In this document: positions 13,960 to 64,000 of the stretch, piece by piece | Layout of the letters: each line of letters opens with the position of its first letter | How positions within the stretch are numbered: the first letter of the stretch is position 1 | Assembly (NCBI GenBank): GCA_947626145.1 | Contig: CANQRB010000010.1 | Span: forward strand, 22,575 to 86,574 | Length of the DNA: 64,000 nt | Source: an uncultured Clostridia bacterium | Lineage (GTDB): Bacteria > Bacillota > Clostridia > UMGS1883 | Direction of reading: 5' to 3' | Notes under the pieces: model-generated | Told to the model about the DNA's origin: nothing | Database searches by the model: none | The model's input: only the letters and a program-made list of their open reading frames with translations | Translations under genes and position numbers: made by a program

Positions 13960-14397
13960 ATGACGAATTATCGCGGGAGCGCCGGACAGAACCGGCATTT
14001 GAAAATGGCGGCCATATTCGGCGCGCTGGCCGTTCTGACTTTGGCGGTGACCCGCTGCGGCGGCAGGGGAGAATACATAGGCACCTTTGACCTGAGTCAC
14101 TATTGCCTTGAGGTCTGGAACGGCAGCCATATTTGCGGCAATTCCGCCTACGGCTGCGGGGGCGACAGACTTGTCCCCGGCAAATCACTGGCCGTGCCCG
14201 CCGACGTGCTCGAAAAATACCCCGTCGGCACCAAGGTTGTGCTGGTTTATCCCGACGGTAAGGAGGAACACCTGATCATACAGGACACCGGACGGGCCCT
14301 TGGTGAGCTTGGGCGGCTGGATATGCCGGTGTACTCCCACAGCGAGGCCTTGGAGCTTGGCGTGGTGGAGAATGTGAAGCTTTATGCGGCAAAATGA
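13960..14397 (+). CDS. Hypothetical exported protein with 3D/RlpA-like C-terminus
   Basis: N-terminal TM; KSLAVPADVLEKYPVGTKVVLVYPDGKEEHLIIQDTGRA resembles 3D-domain proteins. Confidence 0.55.
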   Translation: MTNYRGSAGQNRHLKMAAIFGALAVLTLAVTRCGGRGEYIGTFDLSHYCLEVWNGSHICGNSAYGCGGDRLVPGKSLAVPADVLEKYPVGTKVVLVYPDGKEEHLIIQDTGRALGELGRLDMPVYSHSEALELGVVENVKLYAAK

Positions 14398-14414
14398 AAA
14401 ATGTAAAATGGGGG

Positions 14415-14732
14415 GTAAAAAACTCGCAATGTAATCTGGAGGCACAGGGGCTGTCCAAAAAAATCGTGCAGAACGGACGAAAATCAGCCCGCGCAGGCGG
14501 CCCATGCCGCCGAGCAGGCCCTCCCGACGGCGTACAAAGGTACGCCGAGAGGTGATGTTCGTTCGTAGTTCAAGGGCACAAAAACAAAAGAAAAACCGTC
14601 GTTTCGAAAAACGGCGGTTTTTCCACATTAATTCATGGGTTTAATTTTATTGTCGGACTTAACAACACGTAAATTTCGCTCATATAATGGCTTTCAGCCC
14701 TTGAACGGTCTGCGCCATTTTTTTACAGCCCC
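14415..14732. repeat. ~0.3 kb interspersed element, copy 1 (imperfect terminal inverted repeats)
   Basis: Aligns nearly end to end with 18648-18965; ends GGGGCTGTCCAAAAAAATCGTGCAGA (14447) / TCTGCGCCATTTTTTTACAGCCCC (14732). Confidence 0.8.
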
Positions 14733-14748
14733 TATTTTAATGGCAAAT

Positions 14749-16122
<1,374 letters not shown>

Positions 16123-52871: not shown

Positions 52872-52960
52872 ATGACAGTCCGTTTTAACACCCAGTGAAT
52901 ATGCTATAATAACTGTATAAGGAACATATTTTTTGCAAAAACAACGGCACGGACTGTCAT
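52872..52960 (+). promoter_or_regulatory. cas operon promoter flanked by a perfect 12-bp inverted repeat
   Basis: ATGACAGTCCGT (52872-52883) and ACGGACTGTCAT (52949-52960); -10 TATAAT at 52905-52910. Confidence 0.65.
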
Positions 52961-53001
52961 ACCGCACAGAAATTGAAAAAGGAAAAGGAGAAATAATAAC
53001 T

Positions 53002-55152
53002 ATGTTCAAAGCTCACACCGGTCCAAACAACACATTTCAAACTCTGAAGGAGCACCTGGAAAACGTTTCCGAGCTGTGCGCCGGATACGCTATTCCCGAG
53101 CTTCAGGATTATGCCCGGCTATGCGGCCTGCTCCACGATCTGGGTAAGTACACCAGGTCCTTTCAGAAGCGGATAAACGGCGCCAATATTCAGGTTGAAC
53201 ACGCCCGTTACGGAGCGCAGGAGATCAACGGTAAGGGTAAAGGCTCGTACTTGCCTATGGTGGAGTATTGCATCGCCGGTCATCACAGCGGCCTTCATGA
53301 CGGCGGAACGAAGGCGGACAACAGTGATATTGCCTCGCTCCACGGCCTTTTAAAGCGGGAAAGAGAGGATTGCTCGGCCTACAGGAACGAGATTGAATTC
53401 ACTATGCCCAAGGACAGTCTGCCCTCGTTCATGAAAGGATGTAAGACCGCCGAAGACGTAATCGAACTCTACGCTTTCCTGACGCGGTATCTCTTTTCAT
53501 GCCTCACCGACGCGGACTTTATTGATACCGAGCGTTTCTTTTCGCCCGGAGCGGAGAGGGGAGTCCACGGAAGCTTTGAAAAAGCCCTTGAGCTTCTGAA
53601 TAAAAGGCTGGATTCCTTCCGACCGACGACAAAGCTGCAAAAGGCCCGCAGCGAAATACAGTCTCAGGTCTACCGGCGTATGCGCGATGGGGCGGATGTG
53701 TATTTCATTGATATGCCCACCGGCAGCGGCAAAACCCTTTGCAGCCTTAAGGCCGCCCTCGAAACGGCCATTCGGGAAAAGAAGAAGAGAATTATTTACA
53801 TAATTCCCTATGTCAGCATTATTGAGCAGACCGCCGATGTGTTTGAGAATATTTTCGGCGATGTGCTGCCGGTGCTCCAGCACCATTCCAACTATAGCTT
53901 TGACACTGAGGCCAACGAGGACGAGAACACCGCCGATAAGCTGAAGCGGGCCTGTGAAAACTGGGACGCCGATCTCATAGTGACCACCAACATTCAGTTT
54001 TTTGAATCCATGTACCACTATAAAGGCAGCCGGCTGCGCAAGCTCCACAATCTGGCCGACAGCGTGATCGTTTTTGATGAGTTCCATATGCTCCCGACCC
54101 AATACATACAACCCTGTCTCAGGGCGGTGGGCTATATTACTAAGTATCTCCATTCCACGGCTCTCATTATGTCGGCCACAATGCCGGACTATTCCGCTTA
54201 TTTGGAAAAATATCTGCCCGGCAGCAGCGTTGCCGGCGCCGTGGAGGACAAATCCCTTTTCGGGGCCTTTGAAAAGTGCCGCTACAGTTATGTCGGTCAG
54301 AAAAGTCTTGAAGAAATTGCCGCCATGGCCGGCGAGCGCGGCAGTACACTTGTGATTGTGAACTCCCGCAAAACGGCGAAAAGACTCTTCAATTTGTGCA
54401 GGGAGGACGGCGAAGCCTATCATCTTTCCACTTACATGACGCCGGCCCACCGGTCAAAGGTGATAGGCGAAATAAGGTCGCGGCTTGATGCCGGGGCAGA
54501 TGTGACCGTAATATCTACCTCACTTATAGAAGCTGGAGTCGATCTCGATTTCCGAACAGTAATGCGGGAAAACGCCGGTCTCGACAACGTAGTTCAGGCG
54601 GGCGGCCGCTGCAACCGCGAGGGAAAAATGGAGTCGGGCGACGTAATAGTCTTTGAGACCGGCAGCGCCTACGGCGAGGTCGCGATCAAGGCAAACATCA
54701 CACGCAGCCTTTTCGAGGAGTACGGCAATATAACCGGCGAGGACTGCATAAAGGAATATTACCGCCGCCTTTTTGCCTGGAACGACGAGCTGATTTCCAA
54801 GAACAGTATAACAGAGGATATGATGGTTCTCAAACCTGACGCCATTCCGTTCCGCAGCTACGCCGAGAGCTTCGGCCTCATCGACAACGAGACCATAGGC
54901 ATACTCATTCCCGACGAGGAAAACGCCGAACTGATGAAGGATATAGAAGCTTTGAGGCAGGGCAATCTTTCGGTCAAGCGCCGTCTGCAAAAGCATTGTG
55001 CCTCGGTGCGCCACTATGAGTTTAAGACCATGCTGGAAATGGGAATAGTCGAGCAGCTGCCCGGCGGAGTGTGGATGCTGAGCAATTCCGCATATTACGA
55101 CAAGGAATTTGTGGGCCTTGATCTGGAACGTGAAGCAAACTTTATTTTGTAA
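53002..55152 (+). CDS. cas3: CRISPR-associated nuclease/helicase Cas3 (HD + DExD/H)
   Basis: HD region LCGLLHDLGKYTRSFQKR, MPTGSGKTLCSLKAAL, VFDEFHML, VVQAGGRCNREGK; RBS GGAGAAATAATAACTATG. Confidence 0.95.
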   Translation: MFKAHTGPNNTFQTLKEHLENVSELCAGYAIPELQDYARLCGLLHDLGKYTRSFQKRINGANIQVEHARYGAQEINGKGKGSYLPMVEYCIAGHHSGLHDGGTKADNSDIASLHGLLKREREDCSAYRNEIEFTMPKDSLPSFMKGCKTAEDVIELYAFLTRYLFSCLTDADFIDTERFFSPGAERGVHGSFEKALELLNKRLDSFRPTTKLQKARSEIQSQVYRRMRDGADVYFIDMPTGSGKTLCSLKAALETAIREKKKRIIYIIPYVSIIEQTADVFENIFGDVLPVLQHHSNYSFDTEANEDENTADKLKRACENWDADLIVTTNIQFFESMYHYKGSRLRKLHNLADSVIVFDEFHMLPTQYIQPCLRAVGYITKYLHSTALIMSATMPDYSAYLEKYLPGSSVAGAVEDKSLFGAFEKCRYSYVGQKSLEEIAAMAGERGSTLVIVNSRKTAKRLFNLCREDGEAYHLSTYMTPAHRSKVIGEIRSRLDAGADVTVISTSLIEAGVDLDFRTVMRENAGLDNVVQAGGRCNREGKMESGDVIVFETGSAYGEVAIKANITRSLFEEYGNITGEDCIKEYYRRLFAWNDELISKNSITEDMMVLKPDAIPFRSYAESFGLIDNETIGILIPDEENAELMKDIEALRQGNLSVKRRLQKHCASVRHYEFKTMLEMGIVEQLPGGVWMLSNSAYYDKEFVGLDLEREANFIL

Positions 55153-55211: not shown

Positions 55212-55251
55212 ATAATATTATAATTTTTATATGAAAAAGGAGGGTCAAATT

Positions 55252-55980
55252 ATGCCAACAAGCTATGGCTTCAAGATCATGGTCAGCGGCGACTACGCCT
55301 GCTTTACCCGTCCGGAGTTGAAGGTTGAGCGCGTAAGCTACGATGTTCCGACGCCCGGAGCGCTTGAGGGTCTTATTAAGTGCCTGTACTGGAAACCAGC
55401 TATCAGATACATAATAGACGAAATTGTGGTCTTTAATCCGATCAATTTTATCAACATACGCCGGAACGAGGTAAAGGACAAGGTTAACCTTTCCGCCGTG
55501 AAAAGCGCCATGAACGGCAAGGGCGGCGAGCCGGAAATTTACACGAAGGAAAGCATAAACCAGCGTGGGGGCATGGTGCTCAGGGACGTGCTGTACGGCG
55601 TGGGATTTCATTTTGAATTGACGGGCCTGCGCAGCGACCATGAGGACGAGGGAGAGGCCAAGCACTTCAATATTCTGCGGCGAAGGCTGGAAAACGGCCA
55701 GTGCTTCCGTCAGCCTGTGCTGGGTTGCCGTGAGTTCTCGGTAAGGGAGATATATCCCGTGGAGGAGTTCCCCTACGAAAAAATACACGATAGCCTTAAA
55801 GGCGACCGGGATTTAGGCTTCATGCTGTACCGCATGGAGTTTGAGGATAAGGGCCGTCCGCTGAACGGCGACTGGGACGAGCCTAAGTTTTCCGATTCGG
55901 CGAGGCCCAGCTTCTATCGGCCCCACATGGTGGACGGAGTTATCGACGTGGCGAAGTACAGGGAGGAATTGAGATGCTGA
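55252..55980 (+). CDS. cas5c: Type I-C Cas5 (Cas5c/Cas5d), predicted pre-crRNA endonuclease
   Basis: SYGFKIMVSGDYACFTRPELKVERVSYDVPTPGALEGLIKCLYWKPAIRY; RBS AAAGGAGGG. Confidence 0.95.
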   Translation: MPTSYGFKIMVSGDYACFTRPELKVERVSYDVPTPGALEGLIKCLYWKPAIRYIIDEIVVFNPINFINIRRNEVKDKVNLSAVKSAMNGKGGEPEIYTKESINQRGGMVLRDVLYGVGFHFELTGLRSDHEDEGEAKHFNILRRRLENGQCFRQPVLGCREFSVREIYPVEEFPYEKIHDSLKGDRDLGFMLYRMEFEDKGRPLNGDWDEPKFSDSARPSFYRPHMVDGVIDVAKYREELRC

Positions 55981-57767
55981 TAAGCGCGCTGAACGAATAC
56001 TACGACAAGCTGGCCGCCGCGGGGAAGGTCAGCCCTCCCGGCATGACCAGGCAGAAAATAAGCTATATGATAATGCTCCGGCCCGACGGGACGGTCAGCA
56101 ACATCAACGATGTTCGCGAAGAAACTCAGCCGGACGCAAAGGGCAAAACAAAGAAGGAACTCCGGGAAATGGATTTCCCGGAAAGACCGCCGACCACGGC
56201 TATTGTGCCGTATCTCGCCGACCACAGGCCCCTGTACATTTTCGGCCTCAGCTATGACAAAAACGAAAAGCGCCTGACTCCCGACGGAGAAAAGGCCGAG
56301 GAAAGGCACAAAAAATTTGTGGAATACAACCTTGAGTTTACCGAGGGCCTCACTTCGCCAATAGTAACCGCTTTCAGGAATTTCCTGATAAATTGGAAGC
56401 CCGGGGACGAAACGGAAAATCCGAAGCTCACCGCCCTTGATAAGGATTACGCCGGCGGAAATTACTGCTTTGCTCTTGACGGTCATCCCGAGATAACCTT
56501 GCACGGGGATAAAGGCCTTTTGGAAAAGTGGAGAGCCGCGTCGTACGGCGAGGCCGAACCCGACGGAGTGTGCGCCGTCAGCGGTGAACCGGCGGTCATA
56601 GCCAGAATACACGACAAAATAAAGGGTGTGCGTGGCGGACAGGCTACCGGAACCGCCATAGTTTGCTTCAACAGTCCGGCGGAGGAATCCTACGGCAGGT
56701 CACAGTCATATAACAGCTCCATTTCTCAGAATGTGATGAAGCGATATACCGAGGCTCTTAACCTGCTAATTTCGGATAAAGGGCATTGTATGTATGTAGA
56801 GGATTTAACTATGGTGTTTTGGGCTCAGTCCGAGAATGACGGGGCGGAAACAGATATTTTTAGAGCTCTGCTGAACGGTGACGAAATGGATGCCGATGAG
56901 ACAAACGCCATGCTGCGGGCCGCTGTGAAGGAAATAGCTCAGGGGCGTAATGTCGATTTATCGGCCTTTGACGATGTTGATGAGAACGTGACTTTTTATG
57001 TGGTTGGCTTGGCGCCGAATGTGGCTCGGGTGTCGCAAAAATTCATATACCGTGACAAATTCGGCGAGGTATTTAAAAATGTTGCCGGCCACCAGGCCGA
57101 CATGATGCAGGAGGGCGGCGAATGGCAGATACCGCTTTGGAGAATTCTTAAAGAGCTGATTTCACCTAAAAGTAAGAACGACAAGGTTTCGCCGCCGCTT
57201 ATAGCTTCTCTGTTCTCGGCAATAATCAACGGTTACCGTTATCCCGACAGTCTGCTGGAAACGGCGGTCCGCCGGGTAAAGGTTGATAAAAATGTAAATT
57301 ATGTTCGTGCCGGCATAATAAAGGCCTGTGTCAACAGAAGGTCGAGATTTAATAATGAAAAGGAGGAAATAAAAATGGCACTGGATAAGAATAACACAAA
57401 TCCGGCTTACCTCTGCGGAAGGCTCTTTGCCGTGCTGGAGAGAATACAAAGGAACGCCGCAGAGGGAGAACTGAACAAGACGATCAAGGATTCGTATTTC
57501 GCCTCGGCCTGCGCCAAGCCTCAGGCGGTGTTCACTCAGCTTATGCGTCTGGCTCAGTATCACATGAAGAAGGATGACTATGCCGAAAGAAATAATCGGC
57601 TGATCGGCGAAATAATTGATAAGCTGGGTGACAGCTTCCCCTCGACGCTGCCGCTGGCCGAACAGGGTAAATTCATAATCGGATACTATCAGCAGGTTCA
57701 GAACTTTTATGAAAAGTCTGGTAACAGTGTTGAAAAAAATGAAACCAATGAAAATAATAATAATTAA
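55974..57767 (+). CDS. cas8c: Type I-C Cas8c/Csd1 large subunit
   Basis: LNEYYDKLAAAGKVSPPGMTRQKISYMIMLRPDG...; Csd1-like; between cas5c and cas7. Confidence 0.95.
   Translation: MLISALNEYYDKLAAAGKVSPPGMTRQKISYMIMLRPDGTVSNINDVREETQPDAKGKTKKELREMDFPERPPTTAIVPYLADHRPLYIFGLSYDKNEKRLTPDGEKAEERHKKFVEYNLEFTEGLTSPIVTAFRNFLINWKPGDETENPKLTALDKDYAGGNYCFALDGHPEITLHGDKGLLEKWRAASYGEAEPDGVCAVSGEPAVIARIHDKIKGVRGGQATGTAIVCFNSPAEESYGRSQSYNSSISQNVMKRYTEALNLLISDKGHCMYVEDLTMVFWAQSENDGAETDIFRALLNGDEMDADETNAMLRAAVKEIAQGRNVDLSAFDDVDENVTFYVVGLAPNVARVSQKFIYRDKFGEVFKNVAGHQADMMQEGGEWQIPLWRILKELISPKSKNDKVSPPLIASLFSAIINGYRYPDSLLETAVRRVKVDKNVNYVRAGIIKACVNRRSRFNNEKEEIKMALDKNNTNPAYLCGRLFAVLERIQRNAAEGELNKTIKDSYFASACAKPQAVFTQLMRLAQYHMKKDDYAERNNRLIGEIIDKLGDSFPSTLPLAEQGKFIIGYYQQVQNFYEKSGNSVEKNETNENNNN
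57375..57767 (+). CDS. Predicted Cas11c small subunit from an internal in-frame start in cas8c
   Basis: AAAAGGAGGAAATAAAAATG inside cas8c, in frame (offset 1401 nt); product MALDKNNTNPAYLCGRLFAVLERIQRNAAEGELN... Confidence 0.75.
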   Translation: MALDKNNTNPAYLCGRLFAVLERIQRNAAEGELNKTIKDSYFASACAKPQAVFTQLMRLAQYHMKKDDYAERNNRLIGEIIDKLGDSFPSTLPLAEQGKFIIGYYQQVQNFYEKSGNSVEKNETNENNNN

Positions 57768-57784
57768 GAAAGGACGATTTGAAA

Positions 57785-58648
57785 ATGAAAGCTATTGAAA
57801 ACCGGTATGAATTCGTAATGATTTTTGACGTGGAGAACGGCAATCCCAACGGAGACCCCGATGCGGGCAATATGCCGCGTATCGACCCCGAGACGTCGCT
57901 GGGTATTATGACCGATGTTTGTCTCAAGCGCAAGATCCGCAACTTTGTGGAGATTTACAAGGAAGGCGAACCGGGCTGCAATATTCTTATCAAGCCCGAC
58001 AAGTCCCTCAACTCCAAATTTACGGCTCTATATGAGGAAAACGGTCTTAAGACAAAGCAGAAGGGCAAAAATGCGGACGATGTACGCGAGGCCCGGAAGT
58101 TTGCGTGTCAGAACTATTATGACGTCAGAACCTTTGGCGCAGTCATGAGCACCGGCGACGATCCCTGCGGCATAGTCCGCGGCCCGGTGCAAATAAACTT
58201 TGCAAAAAGCGTCGACCCTGTATACATACAGGATGTGTCCATCACCCGTCAGGCCCGGACGACGGAGGACAGAATGGAGACCGGCCAGACAGAAATGGGC
58301 CGCAAGAGCATAGTCCCCTACGGCCTTTACAGGGCTGAGGGTTATGTTTCCGCCATGCTGGCCCAGAAGGTTACTGGCTTCTCCGAGGAGGATCTCGAGC
58401 TTTTGTGGACGGCGATAATCAATATGTTTGAGCACGATCACAGCGCCGCCCGCGGTAAGATGTGCATGAGAAAGCTCATCGTATTCCGTCATGACAATGC
58501 CCTCGGCTGCGCTCCATCCGGCGTCCTGTTCGACAAGGTTAAAATCGTGAAAAAGGACGGCGTCACAGTTCCAAGGAGCTATGAGGACTACGTAATTACC
58601 GTTGACGGAAATATGCCAGCCGGCGTCACTCTGGAGGAAAAACTGTGA
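57785..58648 (+). CDS. cas7: Type I-C Cas7/Csd2
   Basis: NRYEFVMIFDVENGNPNGDPDAGNMPRIDPETSLGIMTDVCLKRKIRNFVE. Confidence 0.97.
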   Translation: MKAIENRYEFVMIFDVENGNPNGDPDAGNMPRIDPETSLGIMTDVCLKRKIRNFVEIYKEGEPGCNILIKPDKSLNSKFTALYEENGLKTKQKGKNADDVREARKFACQNYYDVRTFGAVMSTGDDPCGIVRGPVQINFAKSVDPVYIQDVSITRQARTTEDRMETGQTEMGRKSIVPYGLYRAEGYVSAMLAQKVTGFSEEDLELLWTAIINMFEHDHSAARGKMCMRKLIVFRHDNALGCAPSGVLFDKVKIVKKDGVTVPRSYEDYVITVDGNMPAGVTLEEKL

Positions 58649-59307
58649 CAATAAATATCCGGGACATACAGCACTATATGTACTGTCCCCGGAGATTTGC
58701 GCTTATGAGGGTCAACGGAGACTGGGCGGAGAACGCCTTTGTGGTTATGGCCAATATCATGCACGAAAACGTCCACTCCGGCAGACACAACGTAAAATCA
58801 TCATCGAAGATCGAAAAAAGCTCAGTCGCTTTATATAATGATGAGCTGGATATTTATGGCGTGGCCGACTGTGTTGAATTTGAAAAGTCAGCCGGCGGCT
58901 GCGCCGTGCCCGGCCTCGAGGGCAGATATAAGGTCAAATTGGTGGAGTACAAGCCCACACAGCCCCGCGATGGTGAAATAAGAGAGACCGACGCCATTCA
59001 GGTCTTTGCCCAAAAGCTTTGCGCCGACTGTATCTGGCATTGCGACAGCGAGGGATGGCTTTATTATTCAGACACCCGCAAAAGAGTGAAGCTGCCGTTT
59101 GACACTGACTTTGACCGCTATTATGCGCTGTTGACCGGACTTTTGGCGGGGATGAGGAGCTGCCTTGAAAACGGTTTTATCCCGCCGAAGCCTCAGGGAC
59201 AGCAGTGCGGCGGCTGTTCGGTCGAAAACCTTTGCTTGTCCAAGACTGTAAAATATGACGTGAAAAGTCTTGTGATAAAGGGGGAAGACGTATGCGAAAG
59301 CTTTTAA
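58645..59307 (+). CDS. cas4: Cas4 (GTG start)
   Basis: INIRDIQHYMYCPRRFALM...VKLVEYKPTQP...QCGGCSVENLCL (4 Cys Fe-S). Confidence 0.95.
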   Translation: MTINIRDIQHYMYCPRRFALMRVNGDWAENAFVVMANIMHENVHSGRHNVKSSSKIEKSSVALYNDELDIYGVADCVEFEKSAGGCAVPGLEGRYKVKLVEYKPTQPRDGEIRETDAIQVFAQKLCADCIWHCDSEGWLYYSDTRKRVKLPFDTDFDRYYALLTGLLAGMRSCLENGFIPPKPQGQQCGGCSVENLCLSKTVKYDVKSLVIKGEDVCESF

Positions 59308-60314
59308 ACACCCTGTATATTACGGATGAAAACATTTACCTCACCCTTGACGGGGAAAACGTGGTTTGCCGCGAAGGGGACGAGGTTCGCCTCCGTCTGC
59401 CCTTCTCCAACCTCGAGGGGATATGCTGCTTCAGCTATCTCGGCTGTTCTCCGGCGCTTATGGGTAAGTGCGCCGATTACGGCATACCCATAAGCTTTAT
59501 TTCCCCGCAGGGGCATTTCCTCGCCAGAGTAGAGGGTAAGACCCGCGGCAACATTCTCCTGCGGAAGCGTCAGTTTGAACTCTTTTCCGCCCCGCCGGTA
59601 AATTTGCGGCAGAATACCGTTGCGGCAAAGCTGGCCAATACCCGCAGCGTGATCAGGCGTACAATAAGGGACAATCCGCAGGCCGACGGGGACGGGGCCT
59701 TGACCGCCGCCGCCGAACGGCTGACCGGTTATATAGGCGACGTGTACAACGAAACCACCTATGATGGCATAATGGGCATAGAGGGAAACGGCGCAAAAGC
59801 TTATTTTGAGATTTTTAACAGGCTTATTCTTAATCAAAAGGAGGATTTCCGCTTTATACAACGCACCAAGCGGCCGCCTCTTGACCGCGTCAATGCCCTT
59901 TTGTCGTTTTTGTATACGGTCATGACCAACGACTACGCATCGGCGCTTACAAGCGTCGGGCTGGACAGCTATATGGGCTATTATCACGCTCCCCGTCCGG
60001 GACGTGAGTCGCTTGCCTGTGATCTTGTCGAGGAGGCAAGGTGCATAGTTGAAAGGTTTACCCTTACTTTGATAAATCTCAAGATAATCAAGGCCGACGA
60101 TTTTGAGGAGCAGGTGAGCGGAGCGGTCTTTCTCAATAAGGACGGGAGAAAAAAGGTGATTGCCAGATGGCAGGAAAAAAAGCGGAGCGATATGGTTCAT
60201 CCGTATTTAAAGCAAAAGATAAAGCTGGGCCTGCTTCCGTATGTACAGAGTATGCTCATGGCCAGGTATGTCCGTGGCGAGCTGGACGAGTATCCTTGTT
60301 TTTTGGTCAGGTAG
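59292..60314 (+). CDS. cas1: Cas1 integrase
   Basis: LLNTLYITDENIYLTLDGENVVCREGDEVRLRLPFSNLEGICCFSYLGCSPALMGKCADYGIPISFIS; GIEGNGAKAYFEIFN. Confidence 0.97.
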   Translation: MRKLLNTLYITDENIYLTLDGENVVCREGDEVRLRLPFSNLEGICCFSYLGCSPALMGKCADYGIPISFISPQGHFLARVEGKTRGNILLRKRQFELFSAPPVNLRQNTVAAKLANTRSVIRRTIRDNPQADGDGALTAAAERLTGYIGDVYNETTYDGIMGIEGNGAKAYFEIFNRLILNQKEDFRFIQRTKRPPLDRVNALLSFLYTVMTNDYASALTSVGLDSYMGYYHAPRPGRESLACDLVEEARCIVERFTLTLINLKIIKADDFEEQVSGAVFLNKDGRKKVIARWQEKKRSDMVHPYLKQKIKLGLLPYVQSMLMARYVRGELDEYPCFLVR

Positions 60315-60323
60315 GTGATAAAA

Positions 60324-60614
60324 ATGATGGCAGTTGTCAGCTATGACGTTTCTACCGTTGATCCGTTGGGCAGCAAGCGGCTGCGCAAGGTGGCCAAGGT
60401 TTGTGTCAACTATGGTCAGCGGGTCCAGAATTCGGTGTTTGAGATAGATGTTGACTATGGCACCTTTCTTAAAGTGAAAAATGAGCTGGAGAAAATTATT
60501 GACAAAGAACGTGACAGCATACGCATATATTACCTTGGCAACAATTGGAAAAACCGAGTTGAGCACATAGGCGCAAAGGAAACCTATGACCCCGAAGGGG
60601 TGCTGATTTTGTAG
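60324..60614 (+). CDS. cas2: Cas2
   Basis: MMAVVSYDVSTVDPLGSKRLRKVAKVCVNYGQRVQNSVFEIDVD. Confidence 0.97.
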   Translation: MMAVVSYDVSTVDPLGSKRLRKVAKVCVNYGQRVQNSVFEIDVDYGTFLKVKNELEKIIDKERDSIRIYYLGNNWKNRVEHIGAKETYDPEGVLIL

Positions 60615-60760
60615 CTGCGAAGTTGCGGTGATACGATTTTGCCGTGACGTTCGCAGAAAAAATCGGCGTTATATTATTAAAAAAACATATTGTTATTATT
60701 ATAACGAATGTTTGTCCGCCCTTTTGTGTAGGCGCGGTATCTCGGCATACAATATGTCGA
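60615..60760 (+). promoter_or_regulatory. CRISPR leader
   Basis: AT-rich 146 bp between cas2 stop and first repeat; contains two inverted repeats (CTGCGAA/TTCGCAG; AACAT-ATT-GTTAT-TATT-ATAAC-GA-ATGTT). Confidence 0.8.
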
Positions 60761-63700
60761 GCCGCGCCCCCATGCGGGGCGTGTGAGTTGAAATGCCCTT
60801 GGCCGGGGGCTGTAAACGTAAAAGCGGCGGCCGCGCCCCCATGCGGGGCGTGTGAGTTGAAATATAGGCATTGAGCAGTCCGGTATCTCCATACTCCATG
60901 CCGCGCCCCCATGCGGGGCGTGTGAGTTGAAATTCCTCCCCACGTTGGAGCCGGACGGTGATATACGCCGCGCCCCCATGCGGGGCGTGTGAGTTGAAAT
61001 TCATTGATGATGTGACCCTTGAAATAGTCACCGGCCGCCGCGCCCCCATGCGGGGCGTGTGAGTTGAAATACTATAAGGGATACCGTACATTTTTGCAAC
61101 ATCGCCGCGCCCCCATGCGGGGCGTGTGAGTTGAAATCTTGAAAATTCGTTATCCTGTTTACACTATTATGCCGCGCCCCCATGCGGGGCGTGTGAGTTG
61201 AAATTTGAAGTTGCGATTGTCAAAGTGTTTATCCCGGAGCCGCGCCCCCATGCGGGGCGTGTGAGTTGAAATTGGTACGGCGTTAACACACGCCTGTAGT
61301 GAAATCGCCGCGCCCCCATGCGGGGCGTGTGAGTTGAAATAAAAAGGCCCTGAGCAAGCGGATAGCTGAGACTGCCGCGCCCCCATGCGGGGCGTGTGAG
61401 TTGAAATTCCAGAATAAAATTTTTATACCCGCCAACTTTTGCGCCGCGCCCCCATGCGGGGCGTGTGAGTTGAAATTTTCAAAATGGCGGTCAGCATATC
61501 GTCAAGCTTGCCGCGCCCCCATGCGGGGCGTGTGAGTTGAAATTGCCTACGCCAAAGGCAAAAAACGATATGCTTAAATGCCGCGCCCCCATGCGGGGCG
61601 TGTGAGTTGAAATGTTATATAGACGCTCAACCTACAGTGGATGCCGGCCGCGCCCCCATGCGGGGCGTGTGAGTTGAAATAATGTCTCTAATTCCTCTTT
61701 GGTTACAATGTGAGCCGCGCCCCCATGCGGGGCGTGTGAGTTGAAATCGTTATAAAGCCGGTTGAATTTGTTCATCATACGCCGCGCCCCCATGCGGGGC
61801 GTGTGAGTTGAAATGCCCATAGCTGCCAACGTTCCGCGCCCTACCATCGCCGCGCCCCCATGCGGGGCGTGTGAGTTGAAATGACCTCTGTCCGAGGGGT
61901 TATTTCCGCATCCTGTGCCGCGCCCCCATGCGGGGCGTGTGAGTTGAAATTTCGACGTCGGCTTCCTCCAGCGCCTGCCAGATGGCCGCGCCCCCATGCG
62001 GGGCGTGTGAGTTGAAATCAAAACGACGCCTTTCTTTTTACAGGCCCGGTCGAGCCGCGCCCCCATGCGGGGCGTGTGAGTTGAAATGTCGAAGCGCTGA
62101 CCCCGAGGGATTGCGACAACGCCGCGCCCCCATGCGGGGCGTGTGAGTTGAAATGGCGGTAGCCTATGTCGGCCCTTTGTCGCCGAAAGAAGCCGCGCCC
62201 CCATGCGGGGCGTGTGAGTTGAAATTTGTTGGCGAGGAGAATATGCGCCGGGAATTTCGCCGCGCCCCCATGCGGGGCGTGTGAGTTGAAATTGCCTCCC
62301 GCCGTGCCCGGTCGAAGCTTGTACTTGCCGCGCCCCCATGCGGGGCGTGTGAGTTGAAATTCATTATCTTTTTCCTTTCCACCGTCCATCTTCGCCGCGC
62401 CCCCATGCGGGGCGTGTGAGTTGAAATCTGGATGCCGTTTTTAAGGAACCTAAAGGAATTTGCCGCGCCCCCATGCGGGGCGTGTGAGTTGAAATTACTT
62501 TACCCTTTTCCGGTTCGGATATCTCCGGAAGCCGCGCCCCCATGCGGGGCGTGTGAGTTGAAATTTAACCTGACAATCGGGGTAATTACAGCATTTCCGC
62601 CGCGCCCCCATGCGGGGCGTGTGAGTTGAAATATATTGTTTGGTGTGGTGTGCCGGTATATCCGGCCGCGCCCCCATGCGGGGCGTGTGAGTTGAAATGC
62701 GCATTCCCTACTTGGACGAAAACGGGCAGGAGGCCGCGCCCCCATGCGGGGCGTGTGAGTTGAAATGCGGAGTTAGCGTAAAGTTGCCAATCAGATATCG
62801 CCGCGCCCCCATGCGGGGCGTGTGAGTTGAAATCGTCTTCGGCGCCGCTGTCGGTGATAACAGACTCGCGCCGCGCCCCCATGCGGGGCGTGTGAGTTGA
62901 AATTCGGCCTCACGGCCAACGCCCACCGTACCGTCAGCCGCCGCGCCCCCATGCGGGGCGTGTGAGTTGAAATCAAACAGCACATGATCAACCATGGCGC
63001 CGATCACTGCCGCGCCCCCATGCGGGGCGTGTGAGTTGAAATCTCCGTCACCTGCTTCAGCGCCTCAGCGTTGCTGTGCCGCGCCCCCATGCGGGGCGTG
63101 TGAGTTGAAATTTCCCATAGTTGCGGATTGTGCCTGGAACATGGCGCCGCGCCCCCATGCGGGGCGTGTGAGTTGAAATTTTTTCACAAACCGGAGCCAA
63201 ATAGTGAAGCATAGCCGCGCCCCCATGCGGGGCGTGTGAGTTGAAATCTTGGCGTCCCGCATCTGTTCGGGTGTGTAGGTGCCGCGCCCCCATGCGGGGC
63301 GTGTGAGTTGAAATTTTCATTTTTCCACCGCCTGTTTGGCTTCAGCCGCCGCGCCCCCATGCGGGGCGTGTGAGTTGAAAATTCCGTATGTACCCCATCA
63401 GCTTGTCCATGCCGGCCGCGCCCCGCATGGGGCGTGTGAGTTGAAAACCACGTAACGACATACTTCCAGCGGCTGTGGACCCGCGCCCCGCATGGGGCGT
63501 GTGAGTTGAAAATTTGACGTTTCCCCTGTACGGGGAACATATATACCGCGCCCCGCATGGGGCGTGTGAGTTGAAAATTTTTGAGAAATCCGCCCTGCAA
63601 AAGACGCTCCAGCCGCGCCCCGCATGGGGCGTGTGAGTTGAAAATTATTCTGGTTTCGGCAGTAGTCATTTGCTCCCGCCGCGCCCCGCATGGGGCGTGT

Positions 63701-64000
63701 GAGTTGAAAACCGCCGTGGAGAAGCTGCTCCCCGCCGTCGAGGGCCGCGCCCCGCATGGGGCGTGTGAGTTGAAAACATTCTGATTGTGATGTTGCGTAT
63801 CGGCCCCTCGGCCGCGCCCCGCATGGGGCGTGTGAGTTGAAAAATCAAAATGGCACACGAAGCAGGGGCCGACAGCGCCGCGCCCCGCATGGGGCGTGTG
63901 AGTTGAAAAGCGCAAAACGGCTGGCAAAGAATTGTTACGGCTAGCCGCGCCCCGCATGGGGCGTGTGAGTTGAAAAGAGAGCGAGGCGGATTTAGACTTG
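60761..64000 (+). CRISPR. Type I-C CRISPR array, at least 48 repeats, truncated by the window end; two repeat types
   Basis: Type A (60761-63314, 38 copies) GCCGCGCCCCCATGCGGGGCGTGTGAGTTGAAAT; chimeric copy at 63348-63381; type B (63415-63976, 9 copies) GCCGCGCCCCGCATGGGGCGTGTGAGTTGAAAA; spacers about 32-36 nt. Counted by hand. Confidence 0.99.

Follow-up and report, generated by a model that had tools for sequence, protein, structure and literature searches.

The window, the whole stretch of 64,000 nucleotides analyzed here from an uncultured Clostridia bacterium, ends in a type I-C CRISPR array whose repeats change form several times along its length. On balance, the evidence favors a single array in which the leader-side repeat changed stepwise and was copied into each later acquisition, so that the blocks of like repeats form a fossil record of the template. 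Each new CRISPR repeat is copied from the one next to the leader, so any change there passes to every repeat added afterward. Under this explanation, most changes to the leader-side repeat would affect the hairpin loop and the terminal base, with the stem and the 3' handle held. The array is a mildly unusual but real case of propagated repeat polymorphism, and it looks like ordinary drift passed on by inheritance.

The type I-C operon in the window is complete, and all of its genes lie on the plus strand. The cas3 gene (helicase/HD nuclease; 52933-55152) matches TIGR01587 and TIGR01596 above cutoff, and is followed by cas5c, the crRNA-processing nuclease of type I-C (55231-55980; TIGR01876, 160.8 bits, cutoff 85). 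The effector genes cas8c/csd1 (55974-57767; TIGR01863) and cas7c/csd2 (57779-58648; TIGR02589), both above their cutoffs, precede cas4 (58645-59307; TIGR00372), cas1c (59292-60314; TIGR03640), and cas2 (60315-60614; TIGR01573). No cas6 is present among these seven genes, and cas5c stands in its place. The leader (60615-60760, plus strand) runs from cas2 to the first repeat.

The array spans positions 60761 to 64000, on the plus strand, and its repeats are only 33-34 bp long. The block next to the leader (60761-63314) contains 38 copies of the A repeat, GCCGCGCCCCCATGCGGGGCGTGTGAGTTGAAAT, with loop CATGC and terminal T, and their spacers. A single hybrid repeat, the 39th (63348-63381), combines the A loop CATGC with the terminal A of the B form. 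Beyond it, nine B repeats (63415-63976), with loop GCAT and terminal A, reach to the contig end; these read CCGCGCCCCGCATGGGGCGTGTGAGTTGAAAA with a leading G, except that the first base is C or A in the repeats at 63480 and 63545, which are 65 bases apart. These odd first bases look like a one-base slip of the leader-side cut during integration. The mid-array switch reported by the sequence-only reading (an earlier model-made note on this DNA) is thus real, with the repeat sequences and boundary as it gave them. The loop change from CATGC to GCAT and the terminal change from T to A, which it had joined in one event, both occur, but not together, as the hybrid repeat demonstrates. Its time order also holds by leader polarity: the leader adjoins cas2, so that the B block would be the older and the A form was passed on through 38 later acquisitions. 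A block-versus-block comparison found no spacers common to different blocks beyond short words. From leader to trailer, like variants lie together in unbroken blocks, as in inherited repeat polymorphism.

The sequence-only reading had proposed extending the array past 64000. The window comprises positions 22575-86574 of contig C10, and C10 ends at 86574, so that the contig itself ends with the window. Another contig of the same assembly, C1, starts inside a repeat of the same kind and orientation, without a leader, and none of the genome's other contig ends has an exact match to the 3' half of the repeat. Positions 1-1030 of C1 are therefore probably the trailer half of the window's array. Comparison of synteny with relatives found no homologous flank and supports the join neither way. 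From new to old, the C1 repeats comprise two GCAT-T, six GCAC-T, three CACGC-T, one GCAC-T, one CACGC-T, one GCAC-A, and a degenerate last repeat, giving the loop order GCAT, GCAC, CACGC, GCAC, CACGC, GCAC. The extension thus added further loop switches: C10 and C1 together have five loop-class switches, four of them of the CACGC/GCAC form. Three C1 spacers near the trailer, after the repeats at 263, 330, and 463, have the 10-mer TTTTAGCAAG in common, which may come from one repeated source element.

Reads of two strains wrongly joined inside the repeats would also give an array of two forms. The genome is a 23-contig draft with a contig break inside the array, the repeats are short, and the relatives described below are metagenome-assembled, so this genome may be as well. 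Such an artefact is nevertheless very unlikely, given that like switching occurs at several points within single contigs, both here and in three relatives (L025, L026, and L033), and that the spacers flanking the hybrid repeat are unique on both sides.

The sequence-only reading had suggested a hairpin-inversion error, in which template switching in the palindromic stem flipped the loop and the flipped form then became the template. Its starting observation is correct: the reverse complement of the A core (CGCCCCCATGCGGGGCG) is one G away from the B core, and A and B differ by one edit after inversion versus three directly. The CATGC and GCAT loops are near-reverse complements because CATG is self-complementary and lies between C and G runs. 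This relation was noticed post hoc, and 16 of 1024 random 5-nt loops (1.6%) match B as well as A does in the same near-reverse-complement test. The CACGC and GCAC loops, by contrast, are not reverse complements; the reverse complement of CGCCCCCACGCGGGGCG is three edits off CGCCCCGCACGGGGCG, equal to the distance without inversion. Inversion is excluded as a general cause because four of the five loop-class switches are of this second form, and even for the single A/B switch a flip is highly improbable. The loop-class switches on C1, which inversion does not explain on their C background, count in favor of stepwise change. If C1 belongs to the same array, its series of independent changes also contradicts the one-step flip of the sequence-only reading. 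A palindromic stem can make unrelated loop changes look like flips.

Arrays from relatives vary in the same part of the repeat. Twelve named loci were found by Cas1, which is at least 58% identical in eleven of them; all come from metagenome-assembled genomes (ten labelled Lapin, two goat gut), mostly of uncultured Clostridia or Monoglobus. Their loops include TCGC/TCGT, GCAA, CCA, GCA, TCAC, CACGC, CATGC, and CTGC. The closest relative, L025, is 90% identical to the window in DNA over 7.8 kb covering the cas genes and leader, yet its loop differs from the window's and went from TCGC to TCGT and back to TCGC. Both loop classes exist as pure arrays in relatives, GCAA/GCA in L012 and L028-L031, and CACGC in L032 (L033 is nearly pure for it), and the loop varies both within and between arrays. 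Among 609 repeats in 15 array sequences, changes between neighboring repeats occur at 4.1 per 1000 bases in the loop, 1.6 in the handle, and 11.5 at the terminal base, and the two stem arms together have only two change events in all. The loop thus has about 19 times more changes per base than the stem (Fisher p = 6e-6, from events that are not independent). There appears to be little constraint on the exact sequence of the loop and last base, in contrast to the stem and the 11-nt handle, which remain fixed.

Several further observations concern the content of these arrays. An insertion of about 1.4 kb, probably a transposable element, interrupts the L025 array at 14060-15425 and has a minus-strand transposase-like gene. 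In the window's A block, spacer 21 has an opposite-strand match in the L025 array (23 of 24 nt), and spacer 22 has 23 nt in common with the L033 array; because of these matches, different species have probably sampled the same invaders.

The order of the blocks bears directly on how they arose. Nine blocks were coded by three features: the loop class, whether the variable loop base (Y) is C or T, and the terminal base. In this permutation test of nine blocks only, with the loop coded as one feature and the C10-C1 join assumed, the array requires nine feature changes over its eight block-to-block steps, versus a mean of 13.6 in shuffled orders, of which 1.2% do as well (p = 0.012). Only one feature changes in seven of the eight steps. 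The order favors stepwise change of one template over the joining of unrelated arrays. Homologous recombination between the arrays of different strains, with crossovers in the common GGGGCGTGTGAGTTGAAA part, could instead have joined blocks that evolved apart, and a mosaic of this type is possible but rather doubtful. Recombination between repeats is a leading hypothesis for array rearrangement (PMC8047081), and the hybrid repeat at 63348 is the expected product of one crossover. Seven of the eight possible combinations of the three coded features are present, and both loop classes are known as pure arrays in relatives, as would suit a mosaic. The hybrid repeat fits stepwise change equally well, and it is the single-feature steps that favor the latter. 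The distribution of this stem also speaks against a mosaic: in 28 genomes of the order, the same stem was found, besides the genome itself, only in the family members G003 (loop GCAA) and G007 (TCGC/TCGT), and neither of these arrays has GCAY or CAYGC loops. The 3' half of the repeat had no match in IMG/VR contigs.

The part least explained by stepwise change is the repeated return to the same two loops, which is odd for free drift. No intermediates between GCAY and CAYGC (e.g., GCAYGC) were seen, and each switch needs at least three edits, which counts against the stepwise explanation. Most simply, the returns would reflect partial copying from one repeat to another within the array, or a small number of recurring short indels; such copying, recombination involving other arrays, and recurring indels could each account for the recurrence. 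It is unlikely that the loop switches reversibly between two states, GCAY and CAYGC, during array growth, whether through a specific DNA mechanism that acts on the palindromic repeat as it is duplicated or through selection for escape from phage mimics such as the prophage element described below.

The predicted fold of the repeat RNA also differs from that of the sequence-only reading. In place of a 6-bp stem, all six forms folded are predicted to have an 8-bp stem with one G-U pair, followed by 11 nt, and the folding energies are near-equal across all repeat forms tested. Eleven nucleotides is the length of the Cas5c handle (PMC3727216), so that the predicted hairpin agrees with the 11-nt 5' handle expected of type I-C. 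Because all the folded forms give the same stem and 11-nt tail, all repeat forms are expected to be processed alike by Cas5c. Two crRNA processing classes in one array, as had been suggested, are not indicated: the stem, cleavage region, and handle are identical in the predicted fold, and loops vary freely among relatives.

A prophage in the same genome includes two mimics of the type I-C repeat, with loops GCAC and GCAT (contig C5, 62548-62649; L011:4549-4650). These loops resemble the older forms of the host, GCAC and GCAT, and the second mimic has a stem mismatch. The 29 nt between the mimics hold most of an extended -10 promoter-like site (ATGACA-17-TACAAT). Just downstream is a 137-aa open reading frame with no match in Pfam or PHROG and no relative found in IMG/VR. 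The prophage element is a candidate Racr, possibly with an anti-CRISPR gene. The prophage region contains no protospacer for the array spacers, and no type I-C repeat occurs near the terminase in IMG/VR relatives of the prophage's terminase. The loop switches might be seen as the record of an arms race, in which the loop was altered to evade a Racr-like, repeat-mimicking phage RNA, and the likeness of the mimics to older host loops, with a promoter-like site between them, speaks in favor of this. This is most improbable. Both mimics retain the handle and the 6-bp inner stem (mismatched at one base pair in one of them), which are the features that Cas5c should read, and we know of no loop-specific recognition. 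The element is present in one prophage only, and none of 20 other genomes of the family has a copy.

A second kind of repeat-like element lies upstream of cas3 in six relatives (L026:3555-3610, L028:3546-3600, and the same place in L029, L030, L031, and L036). Each is a mini-array in which a sigma70-like promoter precedes two degenerate I-C repeats that flank a guide of about 19 nt. This guide matches, on the minus strand, the ribosome-binding region just before the first start codon of the cas operon, with an adjoining CTC motif. Mismatches are confined to guide positions 6, 12, 18, and 19 (6, 15, 18, and 19 in L036), and none of 200 shuffled guides in each locus matched as well. Type I Cascade does not read positions 6, 12, and 18. 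As judged by sequence, the arrangement would fit CreR, an autorepressor resembling a crRNA that has been reported in type I systems (PMC12737573). The regions upstream of cas3 in the window and in L025 yielded no such mini-array. These CreR-like guides and the Racr-like prophage element may be worth more than the repeat switch.

If confirmed, the array would be an ordered record of CRISPR repeat template change over at least 60 acquisitions, and would mean that variation is almost unconstrained in the I-C loop but not in the stem and handle. Arrays of this kind also have a practical consequence, in that repeat-clustering tools can split a single array into several.

Compared with known systems, the locus resembles type I-C (Dvulg) CRISPR-Cas with Cas5c processing: the full cas3-cas5c-cas8c-cas7c-cas4-cas1-cas2 operon adjoins the leader and array, and the repeat is a hairpin with an 11-nt 3' handle. 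It differs in that the loop switches several times inside one array, and in the handle itself, which is TGAGTTGAAAT in the window and TGGATTGAAAT in L034 and L035. The prophage pair of mimics resembles Racr elements, which are repeat-mimicking phage RNAs (PMC10651486). Array rearrangement by recombination between repeats predicts hybrids such as that at 63348-63381, but the joining of unrelated arrays does not predict single-feature steps. A parallel to stepwise template change is known repeat polymorphism, including trailer-end variants and propagated repeat mutations, in which variant repeats lie in blocks, older toward the trailer, and are copied into later ones (PMC4869251, PMC8047081). 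The window's array has the same block-wise variants with the older on the trailer side; in contrast to the known cases, its variation runs through the whole array rather than the last repeat only, and it returns repeatedly to two loop classes that differ from each other by indels.
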